Source of the DNA: Candidatus Methylomirabilota bacterium
GTDB lineage: Bacteria; Methylomirabilota; Methylomirabilia; Methylomirabilales; Methylomirabilaceae
Direction of reading: 5' to 3'
NCBI GenBank assembly: GCA_016207095.1
Contig: JACQQF010000027.1
Span: 1 to 64,000, forward strand
Length of the DNA: 64,000 bases
This document shows positions 1 to 39,304 of this stretch, one piece after another. The position numbers were made by a program, and so were the translations under genes. The stretch's first letter is position 1, and each line of letters begins with the position of its first letter. The notes under the pieces were generated by a model. The model was not told the origin of the DNA. It made no database searches and saw only the letters and a list, made by a program, of their open reading frames with translations.

Positions 1-57
1 CGGCACTAATCGCCGACAAGTATCCTGCAAAACGGTCGTTCAGACACCGCTTTTCCC

Positions 58-159
58 AGTGCCGTTCCAACTGTTTGGCCTCACAACACAATGATGTGTA
101 GGCAACTTAATCGGCCTCTGCACAGCGTCAGTATTTGTCCGAAAAAGTTGGAACGGCAC
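58..159. mobile_element. MITE-like element (inner copy) AGTGCCGTTCCAACT...AGTTGGAACGGCAC nested in another copy
   Basis: Terminal inverted repeat identical to the 37.8-kb copy; flanked by halves of an 11.3-kb-type element. Confidence 0.7.
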
Positions 160-196
160 GAGCCTCACCTTTTTGGCATAGGTAGTCGGAACGATA

Positions 197-1486
197 TCAG
201 CCGCGTTTCTCGATCGACACCACGTCTCGCAGAGCATGCCCCACGTAAACCTGCCGGGGCCTGGCGATCTTCTGCTCCGAATCCAACAGCATCTCCTCCC
301 ACTGCGCCATCCAGCCCGATGTTCTCGGGATCGCGAACAGCACCGGGAAGATATCCACCGGAAAGCCCATCGCCTGGTAGATAATCCCCGAATAGAAATC
401 GACGTTCGGGTAGAGCTTTCGCTTTACGAAGTAGTCGTCCTGCAGCGCGATCCGCTCCAGTTCAACGGCCATCTCCAGCAACGGGTTCGTCCCCGTCACC
501 TCGAATACCTGCTCCGCCAGCCGTTTGATGATCCTTGCCCTGGGGTCGTAGTTCTTATAGACGCGATGGCCGAACCCCATCAAGCGCCCCTCCCCGGCCT
601 TCGCCCTCTTGATGAACTCGGGGATGCGGTCCTTCGACCCGATCTCGTTGAGCATCCGGAGCACCGCCTCGTTGGCGCCGCCGTGCAGGGGTCCGTAGAG
701 GGCTGCGGTCGCTGCCGCCACAGCCGAGTACGGGTTGACCTGGGAGCTTCCGACGCTCCTCATGGCGTTGGCGCTGCAGTTCTGCTCGTGGTCCGCGTGA
801 AGGATGAACAGAACATCGAGGGCCTTCTCGAGGACCGGATTGGGCTTGTACTTCGACTCGGCCATCTTGAAGAGCATGCTGAGAAAGTTTCCAGTGTAAC
901 TCAGGTCGTTGTCCGGGTACACGTACGGCAGACCCAGGCTCTGTCGATAGGCGAAGGCGGCAATCGTCGGCATCTTGGCCACCAGCCGCTGGATCTGCTT
1001 CTTGCGGGACTCGGGGTCCATGACCTGCTTGGCATCAGGGTAGAACGTGGAGAGTGCTCCCACCGTCCCGACGAGAATCCCCATCGGGTGAGCATCGTAA
1101 CGAAAGCCGTCCATGAACTTCTTGATGTTCTCGTGGATCATGGTGTGGTGAGTGATGTTCCAGACCCAGTCATCGAGCTGCGCCCTGGTGGGCAGCTCTC
1201 CGTGCAGGATCAGGTAGGCGACCTCGAGGTAGCTGCACCGCTCAGCGAGCTGCTCGATCGGGTACCCTCGATAACGCAAGATCCCCTTGTCGCCGTCGAT
1301 GAACGTGATCTTGCTCTTGCACGAGGCTGTGTTCATGAACGCCGGGTCATAGCTCATCACCCCGAATTCGTCGTCCGTGACCTTGATCTGCCGAAGATCC
1401 ATGGCCCGGATGGTCCCTTGCTGAACCGGGATCTCGTAGCTCTTTCCATTCCGGTTGTCGGTAATGGTCAAGGTGTCTTTGCTCAT
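197..1486 (-). CDS. gltA: Citrate synthase
   Basis: ORF with citrate synthase motifs (GPLHGGANEAVLRML, MGFGHRVYKNYDPRA); internal start MSKDTLTITDN preceded by AAAGGAG. Confidence 0.95.
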   Translation of the reverse strand: MSKDTLTITDNRNGKSYEIPVQQGTIRAMDLRQIKVTDDEFGVMSYDPAFMNTASCKSKITFIDGDKGILRYRGYPIEQLAERCSYLEVAYLILHGELPTRAQLDDWVWNITHHTMIHENIKKFMDGFRYDAHPMGILVGTVGALSTFYPDAKQVMDPESRKKQIQRLVAKMPTIAAFAYRQSLGLPYVYPDNDLSYTGNFLSMLFKMAESKYKPNPVLEKALDVLFILHADHEQNCSANAMRSVGSSQVNPYSAVAAATAALYGPLHGGANEAVLRMLNEIGSKDRIPEFIKRAKAGEGRLMGFGHRVYKNYDPRARIIKRLAEQVFEVTGTNPLLEMAVELERIALQDDYFVKRKLYPNVDFYSGIIYQAMGFPVDIFPVLFAIPRTSGWMAQWEEMLLDSEQKIARPRQVYVGHALRDVVSIEKRG

Positions 1487-1602
1487 CGCCGTGCTCCTTT
1501 CTCTGCTCAGGCCGCTAGGGGCCTGCTGTTGAAAGACGAGGGAATGAACGGAATGATCCTCCACCTCAGAACACTCGGGGTCTCCGGCATGTCCATGGAA
1601 GG

Positions 1603-11296: not shown

Positions 11297-11411
11297 CTAG
11301 TACCGTTCCAACCTGTTGAGGCTAATCGCATACGTATCCTGCTAGACGGTCGCTCATATATCACCGTTCCCGGCCTCACCATCTTGGCGTAAGTCGTTGG
11401 AACGCCACTAG
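11297..11411. mobile_element. MITE-like element bounded by CTAG with inverted ends TAGTACCGTTCCAAC / GTTGGAACGCCACTA
   Basis: 115 bp, no ORF, imperfect terminal inverted repeats; related copies at 1-196 and 37827-37925. Confidence 0.75.
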
Positions 11412-11971
11412 AAAAGAACCATCGCCGGCTCGATCCGAAGGTTCTTTATCATCACCACAAGATTGCGCGCCTCTCCCACCTGGTCTTTCACATAGTTGAA
11501 GAAGACAGCCTCTTTTTCGAACCCCAGCCGCTTGAACGCGCTGAGCGCACCGGTTTGATCCGACATCAACTCGGCGACGAGTTGTTCAAGGCCTGCCTTC
11601 CGGGCAATGTGGATCAGCTCCTCGATCAGAACCATCCCCAGGCCCTTTCCGCGATAGTCTTTATCGATGACAAGGCGCACCTTTCCCACATGACTGGTCC
11701 AGCCGAATGTGCGCCGATGCAAGGTGGCATCGCCCACGATGTTCCCGCCCACTTCGGCCACCAGTGGGAGAACCTTCCCATAATCGAGCTCCTGGGTCCA
11801 CGAATCGATCACATCCCGTATAGACACATCGTCACGCAGAAAGAGACGATCCTCTCTGGGCACCCTGGAGAAAAACGCATAGAGCTTATCCGCATCCTCT
11901 TTCACCATCGGGCGGATCGTGACACTCGTCCCACTCTGAAGTCGCACCTTCTTTGGATATCCGGTTAGCAT
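11408..11971 (-). CDS. GNAT family N-acetyltransferase
   Basis: GNAT motif A VRLVIDKDYRGKGLGMVLIEELI; paralogous to three others in the window. Confidence 0.85.
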   Translation of the reverse strand: MLTGYPKKVRLQSGTSVTIRPMVKEDADKLYAFFSRVPREDRLFLRDDVSIRDVIDSWTQELDYGKVLPLVAEVGGNIVGDATLHRRTFGWTSHVGKVRLVIDKDYRGKGLGMVLIEELIHIARKAGLEQLVAELMSDQTGALSAFKRLGFEKEAVFFNYVKDQVGEARNLVVMIKNLRIEPAMVLF

Positions 11972-37826: not shown

Positions 37827-37925
37827 CTAGTGCCGTTCCAACTATTTGGGTAACAGAACATCTCTTGGCGATTAGCCGAAACGAGTTAGAACGGCATTAG
37901 CCGAAACGAGTTGGAACGGCACTAG
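37827..37925. mobile_element. MITE-like element bounded by CTAG with inverted ends TAGTGCCGTTCCAACT / AGTTGGAACGGCACTA
   Basis: 99 bp, perfect 16-bp terminal inverted repeat, internal 25-bp tandem duplication (TTAGCCGAAACGAGTTRGAACGGCA x2). Confidence 0.8.
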
Positions 37926-39304
37926 GAAGCCCTAATGCCGTACTTCTTTAGAAGGCGATGGATCGTCTTGCGGTCCACGCCGGCAGACTTTGCAGCCTGC
38001 GAGATATTCCCGTCGTGACGCTTCAGGAGCTGAACCAGGTACTCTCGCTCAAAAGAGGCCGCCCACTCCTCTTTCGCCCGCTTCAGCGGCAGATCCCTGG
38101 GCGAGATAGGTGAGACAGTCCCCATCCTTGTGTGGATATGCTCCGGCAGGTCTTCCGGGCGCAATAACTCATGCTCGGTCAGCACAACCGCCCGCTCGAT
38201 GACATTCTGCAGCTCACGGACATTTCCGGGCCAGTGGTACTCCCCGAGCAACTGCATCGCCTCCGGAACGATCCCCTTGACCTCCTTCCCACTGCTGGCC
38301 ACGTACTTCTCGATGTAGTGGTGAGCGATCAATGGGATATCCCCCTTGCGGTCGCGCAAGGGCGGGAGCGGGATGGAGATCACATTCAGCCGATAGTAGA
38401 GGTCCTCCCGAAACTCGCCCTTTGCGACTGCTTGCGCCAGGTCGCGGTTCGTGGCGGAGATGACCCGCACGTCCACCTCGATGGTCCGGTTCGACCCGAC
38501 CCGCCGCACCTCCCGTTCCTGGAGGACGCGAAGGAGCTTGGCCTGAAGATTCATGCCGACATCGCCTACCTCGTCCAGGAAGATGGTCCCGCCGCTCGCG
38601 AATTCGAACAGGCCAGGGCGCGTAGCCTGCGCTCCTGTGAAGGCACCTTTCTCATGACCAAATAGCTCGCTCTCAAGTAGATTTTCGGGAAGAGAGGCGC
38701 AATCGACCGGGATAAAGGGCTTCGATGCCCTGCGGCTGTTGACGTGGAGGCTCCGCGCGATCAGCTCCTTTCCGGTCCCGGTCTCGCCAACGATCAGAAT
38801 GTTGGCCTCACTCTTGGCGACCTTCTTGATCGTCTCGAAGACCTGAAGCATCGGCAAACTCCTGCCGATGATCTTATCGAACCGGTAGGTTTCGGTGAGC
38901 TGCTCCAGGAGTCGTCGGTTCTCTTCCCGAAGCCGACGTTGCTCCAGCGCCCGTTCAATGCAGACCCTGAGCTGGTCGCCAGAGAATGGCTTGGGCAGGT
39001 AATCGAACGCGCCCTCCTTCACGGCCTCCACAGCGGTCTCGATGGTGGCGAACGCGGTAATCAGGATGACCGTGGCCGAGGGATCAATGGCGCGGATAGC
39101 CCGCAAGACCCCCAGCCCGTCGAGGCCCGGCATCCGTAGGTCGGTGAGCACCAAGTCGGGCCTCTCTCGCTCGAACATCGTGGGGGCCTTGGTGCTGTCA
39201 GCCTCCGTCACCACCAGGTAGCCAAGGTGTGACAGCAATCGAGCGCAGCTCTCCAACATGTCCAGTTCATCATCGATCACGAGGACCCGGGCCGACTTTG
39301 GCAT
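37922..39304 (-). CDS. Sigma54-dependent NtrC-family response regulator
   Basis: Receiver domain, [15 protein letters not shown] Walker [14 protein letters not shown] (GAFTGA sigma54 contact motif), Fis-type HTH C-terminus. Confidence 0.96.

Follow-up and report, generated by a model that had tools for sequence, protein, structure and literature searches.

The window, by which is meant the whole stretch of 64,000 nucleotides analysed here, belongs to the genome of a Candidatus Methylomirabilota bacterium (2.9 Mb, 103 contigs, 95% complete), and contig C100 (127 kb) begins with its base 1. Over bases 1-200 the order is CGGCA, CTAA, outer element (10-55), CCAG, inner element (60-158), CGAG, outer element (163-196) and TCAG. 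The last 4-mer overlaps an ORF which we take to be gltA (citrate synthase), as it was named from sequence in the original prediction; the stop codon placed there at 197 is verified by the ORF. The window contains four pairs of terminal inverted repeats (TIRs), against no comparable pair in 20 shuffles of it. Its features, including the target-site duplications (TSDs), are the following.

1-5: CGGCA, the terminal 5 bases of a third element, which inserted into the outer one; they are identical to element ends, and the remainder of the element lies beyond the contig end
6-9: CTAA, target site or TSD of the third element; the site is conserved and lies 21 bp into the outer element
10-55, minus strand: first part of the outer element, running antisense to the GIY-YIG unit described below
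56-59: CCAG, left copy of the inner TSD; empty outer copies have CTAG, CCGG or CTGG here
60-158, plus strand: inner element, 99 bp, with perfect 13-bp TIRs (TGCCGTTCCAACT / AGTTGGAACGGCA); standalone relatives at L008, L013 and L016
159-162: CGAG, right copy of the inner TSD, differing from CCAG by one base
163-196, minus strand: outer element, second part, with a decayed TIR (GTCGGAACGATA, 3 mismatches) at 185-196
197-200: TCAG, the decayed outer TSD, containing the gltA stop codon; a relative's locus L067 has CTAG at the orthologous site
197-1564, minus strand: ORF, presumably gltA (citrate synthase), its stop codon within the outer TSD
11301-11407, minus strand: 107-bp copy of the outer subfamily without an insert, with TSD CTAG at 11297-11300 and 11408-11411, containing the stop codon of a GNAT-like ORF (11408-11971)
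37831-37921, plus strand: 91-bp form, with TSD CTAG at 37827-37830 and 37922-37925, containing the stop codon of an NtrC-like ORF (37922-39304); a 66-bp element (37831-37896) has its right end joined via TTAG (37897-37900) to a second right end

The original prediction recognised one MITE inserted inside another in bases 1-196. This is borne out by the perfect TIRs of the inner element, whose ends are intact, as had been stated, and by the presence in the same genome of empty outer copies and of the 4-bp duplication. The two outer pieces, said to match the halves of the element at 11.3 kb, do align with 11301-11407 and with the empty copies. The boundaries had to be moved. The inner element, placed at 58-159, occupies 60-158 between CCAG (56-59) and CGAG (159-162). 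The first outer half, given as 1-57, stands for 10-55, bases 1-9 being the right end of a third element with its CTAA and bases 56-57 part of the TSD; the second, given as about 160-196, keeps its right end at 196 with the decayed TIR and loses its start, since CGAG occupies 159-162. Nested and empty junctions among the aligned genomic copies gave the TSD, as had been anticipated, at 4 bp. The third element had been missed, and the presumed driver of the family was out of that reading's reach. The junction GGCA|CTAATCGCC of bases 1-9 also occurs in other copies of the window's genome and at L069 in a relative, and the orthologous locus L014 of the window's genome is empty (CCAACCGC) where L069 has an element in CTAA. 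Bases 10-196 thus read as a decayed element of about 100 bp split by an intact 99-bp element at a 4-bp target. Taken jointly with the identity of the autonomous form discussed below, bases 1-196 are probably what is left of at least three MITEs, non-autonomous copies of a single transposon family, nested at CTAG-like 4-mers.

The genome holds well over 100 copies of this family, characterised by the TIR TGCCGTTCCAACT and a 4-bp TSD of CTAG and variants. TIR motifs with at most one mismatch number 136+136, compared with 3+4 in the reversed control, and 53 exact TIR pairs are present. Among 154 elements, flanking 4-mers agree at 94% of positions, against 2-25% at other lengths, and the commonest pair is CTAG/CTAG (107), the TSD set from other genomes' contigs having been selected with TA on both sides and being therefore biased towards CTAG. 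The asymmetric pairs TTAG/TTAG, CCAG/CCAG and CTAA/CTAA were also found, which indicates a real direct duplication of the target. Across the MAG contigs scanned, element lengths peak at 100 bp, exactly in 55 of 100 and within one base in 90, even though the search pattern permitted a range of 30 bp; in the elements L031-L129 this size of 100 +/- 1 bp is kept across several phyla despite unrelated interiors. The interiors are unrelated across elements (median identity 0.30) and give no signal of RNA structure (mean z -0.5). What is shared is an end module of 25 bp, made of the 13-bp TIR, T-rich positions 14-17, C22 (84%) and A24 (82%). A second non-coding subfamily, longer at about 165-180 bp, occurs in the window's genome at L142, L144 and L132; it shares the TIRs and has a conserved interior of its own. 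Among the matches listed from MAGs, TIR pairs are found in Acidobacteria, Betaproteobacteria, Gammaproteobacteria, Gemmatimonadetes, Methylomirabilota, Nitrospirae, Omnitrophota and Armatimonadetes. A plasmid search with 30-base end modules gave no real match, and a TIR scan of viral contigs returned six stretches, only one of them with a paired end nearby.

The nested arrangement is itself recurrent. Twelve nested matches in the window's genome, one locus being represented twice, have an insert of 99-106 bp between two 4-mers at the same outer site, in both orientations and from at least two different inner subfamilies, with a third kind there at L028 and L029. Junctions include CCAG(99)CCAG and CCAG(99)CCGG, and in the window CTCG(99)CTGG on the minus strand, at the site where empty outer copies have CTAG, CCGG or CTGG. 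In L003 (203 bp), subtraction of the 99-bp insert and of one 4-mer leaves 100 bp, the same as in the empty copies. Empty outer copies combined with a 4-bp duplication imply that the composite arose by insertion, and as it is found at roughly a dozen loci whose flanks differ, it later moved as a unit. The once-mobile character of the family, argued in the original prediction from the nesting, is upheld by the same nests, empty sites and duplication. Its refuting case, that 1-196 is simply one longer variant, is right in that the composite does recur in roughly a dozen differently flanked places and wrong as regards its origin, which was by insertion. The nest makes the inner element younger than the outer, in keeping with the relative age order claimed earlier, and does not necessarily imply two separate events at gltA.

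The composite may in fact have reached gltA whole, as a longer element whose nest had been built elsewhere. Nests sharing the mutated target copy CGAG are found with differing flanks on contigs C37 and C81 and where contigs C4 and C7 end, while the window retains a TSD mutation of its own, and the two histories appear evenly balanced. Such an arrival concerns the history of the locus only; it is compatible with the best explanation and no true rival to nesting, insertion being marked by the empty outers and the 4-bp duplication. At the relative's gltA locus (L067, with 93.8% identity downstream), the same CTAG is occupied by a 91-bp form, which would be the expected product of a deletion between direct right ends, those of the CTAA-inserted and of the outer element. 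Arrays with element ends every 25 bp were observed at L146, L147, L148 and L149 (contigs C18, C43, C61 and C44); they derive from repeated insertion at the CTAA that lies 21 bp into each element, one side then being lost. Contigs break inside elements at base 1 of the window and at the ends of C4, C7, C32, C37, C50 and C81, so that composites limit the assembly.

All three window copies adjoin stop codons of minus-strand ORFs (197, 11408 and 37922). The location at a gene 3' end, pointed out earlier for the outer copy, is true here and extends to many elements. For 16 of the 26 elements scored in the genome, the target's TAG serves as stop codon to an ORF of 120 aa or more, compared with 19 of 126 background CTAG sites (p = 3e-6); elsewhere the figures are 56 of 90 elements and 81 of 304 background sites (p = 1e-9). 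The simplest reading of this preference is a CTAG target together with selection against insertion inside genes. A size of about 100 bp, inverted ends and many copies at gene ends are also features of REPIN- or BIME-like repeats, which owe their spread to a RAYT (Y1/HUH) transposase. Such a nature is nevertheless highly improbable for these elements, which have a true 4-bp target duplication, asymmetric 4-mers included, where REPIN/RAYT systems combine a Y1 enzyme with no TSD; moreover, Y1_Tnp is missing from the window's genome, G002 and G011.

As non-coding elements with TIRs and a fixed 4-bp TSD, the copies have the features of MITEs, and resemble the bacterial MITEs of IS families (MITEAba12, RUP, Correia), which are similarly non-coding, about 100 bp long, TIR-bounded, flanked by a short TSD, present in high copy number and nested. 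Those, however, have a DDE insertion sequence as partner, whereas here no such sequence turned up and GIY-YIG is the gene that the coding unit carries; furthermore, the ends here are conserved across several phyla while the interiors are unrelated. The window's genome has no match to DDE_Tnp_1 (PF01609), DDE_5 (PF13546), rve, Y1_Tnp or DDE_Tnp_1_6 (PF13751), and none of the checked flanks of PF01609 and rve matches elsewhere has these TIRs; PF13751 has matches in G043. A partner of the IS4/IS5, IS701, IS1182 or rve (IS3/IS21/IS481) type thus has neither a matching transposase in the genome nor a TIR-flanked one among the PF01609 and rve matches checked. An IS-length copy was also sought through unpaired TIRs in the window's genome; those examined were short elements, mostly with one decayed end.

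Longer units emerged from the listing of TIRs in other carrier genomes, followed by a GIY-YIG search. They are 301-319 bp long, with the same TIRs and TSD and an ORF for a GIY-YIG protein of about 93 aa as their sole gene, and were found in Acidobacteria, Gemmatimonadetes, Nitrospirae, Omnitrophota and Methylomirabilota, as follows.

G053, Ca. Acidiferrum typicum UBA7541: 318 bp, GIY-YIG encoded on the reverse strand, stop codon in the flanking CTAG
G044, Gemmatimonadetes: 315 bp
G043, Terriglobia: 301 bp
G011, same genus as the window's genome: 317 bp
G039, same class as the window's genome: complete units of 312 bp; at least 12 TIR-bearing copies with different flanks, many at contig ends
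G048, Nitrospirae: two units, 317 and 319 bp
G061, Acidobacteria gp2: 317 bp, frame broken
G046 (Nitrospira) and G047 (Omnitrophota): decayed copies

Across phyla, five units encode proteins that share 60-65% identity with that of the first. Their Pfam GIY-YIG match has an E value of 1.6e-12, and the motifs of the family (Y..YV, Y.G, Arg, Glu) are found in alignment A2, with Y5, R26 and H30 invariant and Y16, G18, R61 and E62 nearly so. The structure model (pLDDT 84) has a fold resembling UPF0213 1zg2, Slx1 and the I-TevI catalytic domain. In a tree of 52 single-domain GIY-YIGs, all 14 TIR-flanked proteins fall in one clade (support 99/98, recovered in all 200 bootstrap trees). TIR flanks accompany 14 of 14 members of the clade and 0 of 38 other GIY-YIGs (Fisher 5.7e-13, a value inflated by the near-identical G039 copies, with seven genomes remaining). 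Between lineages pN/pS is 0.31-0.47, with synonymous sites near saturation (dS 1.0 and dN 0.22 for G011 of Methylomirabilota versus G048 of Nitrospirae), and changes among the G039 copies are almost all non-synonymous. The ORF is thus under purifying selection between phyla, with copies within a genome drifting, as expected after insertion. Shorter derivatives are a 177-bp element (L285, G023), with the first 34 aa fused to an NKLER end, and a 235-bp unit with a partial domain (L317); they are internal deletions, intermediate between the autonomous unit and the miniature.

These observations suggest that the unit of the approximately 93-aa GIY-YIG nuclease is likely the autonomous form of the family, and the window's elements its MITEs. 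A same-ended autonomous partner is accordingly present in other genomes, including one of the same genus (G011, L267), and none in the window's genome. There, a search of the 95% complete assembly gave no TIR-type nuclease copy; the only small GIY-YIG (L227, C3:33180-33386) belongs to another clade and lies between tRNA-like sequences, without flanking TIRs. Among 41 relatives the TIR-type nuclease occurs in 2 of 10 MITE carriers and 0 of 31 genomes without MITEs (p = 0.055), which is only suggestive of an association, and of 33 further carrier genomes, many of them incomplete MAGs, about two thirds are without a full nuclease copy. Loss after amplification, or MAG gaps, would explain such absences. 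In comparisons of MITE interiors with the nuclease gene, coding remnants scored 10 bits against 6 in shuffles, which is not convincing.

The same absences agree with the GIY-YIG gene being a passenger or selfish booster, the MITEs, GIY-YIG units and other cargo being moved in trans by a conventional transposase, given that most examined MITE-bearing genomes are without a TIR-type GIY-YIG. Some DDE families typically make 4-bp YTAR-like duplications. Moreover, a segment of 2343 bp in G053 (L213:22-2364, contig C80), bounded at each end by an exact TIR, an end module and CTAG, holds instead the gene of a 639-aa beta-helix-like protein; it was for this reason rejected as an autonomous element and is possibly a cargo-bearing member of the family. 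This explanation is nonetheless unlikely: PF01609, PF13546, rve, Y1 and PF13751 are without match in the window's genome, and the one GIY-YIG subfamily is the sole protein-coding unit found repeatedly, in several phyla. The subfamily is also monophyletic and under selection, takes up the whole of its unit and is present in multiple copies in G039.

The unit consists of two end modules of about 25 bp (TIR TGCCGTTCCAACT and a sub-terminal GCC-A motif) and one gene. If the nuclease is the mover, it would bind the end modules and make cuts staggered by 4 nt, both at the flanking CTAG and at a target resembling CTAG, and joining of the element would leave the 4-mer on both sides. GIY-YIG enzymes are hydrolytic nucleases, and to our knowledge none has strand-transfer activity, so that joining may need a host ligase. 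As CTAG is palindromic, the 4-nt overhangs of staggered cuts could be rejoined by that ligase, giving the duplication without a strand-transfer step; alternatively, a single-strand route may operate. The nuclease could work in trans on DNA of about 65-300 bp or more between two end modules. Each element would bring new CTAG-like sites, in which later copies nest, and direct end repeats would then delete pieces. The TIRs, the TSD, the nesting, the spread of composites, the TIR-bounded units of several phyla with their copy number, clade and selection, and the two internal deletions are read from the sequences themselves; the role of GIY-YIG as transposase, the cut geometry, the strand joining and a now-absent driver of the window's elements are what we infer.

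All transposases known to us rely on DDE, HUH, tyrosine, serine or Cas1 chemistry, and we know of no autonomous transposon smaller than 301-319 bp. The units, present in at least five bacterial phyla, likely represent a new class of DNA transposon whose sole transposition protein would be a GIY-YIG nuclease of about 93 aa, mobilising MITEs of about 100 bp, and possibly cargo, by cutting CTAG. If true, a single-domain GIY-YIG transposon adds a class, the minimum autonomous size falls to about 300 bp, and large orphan MITE families of uncultivated soil and groundwater bacteria are accounted for. The type looks previously undescribed: the open-access papers searched have GIY-YIG in homing enzymes, restriction enzymes, Penelope retroelements and Tsy, and describe neither a TIR transposon with GIY-YIG alone nor the end sequence.

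GIY-YIG homing endonucleases of the I-TevI type share with these units a catalytic domain which promotes the spread of its own DNA. Homing, however, requires homologous flanks, as in insertion into an intron-less or intein-less allele, and involves no TIR or TSD; here the elements have TIRs and a 4-bp TSD, and their flanks are unrelated, with only CTAG in common. Furthermore, the 93-aa nuclease, unlike homing endonucleases, is without NUMOD or another DNA-binding domain. The Tsy transposon also encodes a GIY-YIG nuclease, but moves by tyrosine recombinases, its GIY-YIG being a dispensable accessory (PMC10293859). Penelope-like retroelements are mobile elements with a GIY-YIG endonuclease (PMC13269885); they are eukaryotic and reverse-transcriptase based, with no comparable TIR unit. 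A phylogenomic survey of GIY-YIG left open whether molecular parasites exist beyond homing and restriction enzymes (PMC1564403), a question which the present units, if the proposal is true, would answer. The best sequence and fold matches to the TIR-type nuclease are single-domain GIY-YIGs of the UPF0213 type (1zg2, 1ywl), and the non-TIR single-domain GIY-YIGs examined here lie outside the TIR clade. One of these, at L225/L308 (G043, contig C196), scores 85 bits against the TIR-type profile and has no TIRs; it is possibly a close non-mobile relative.
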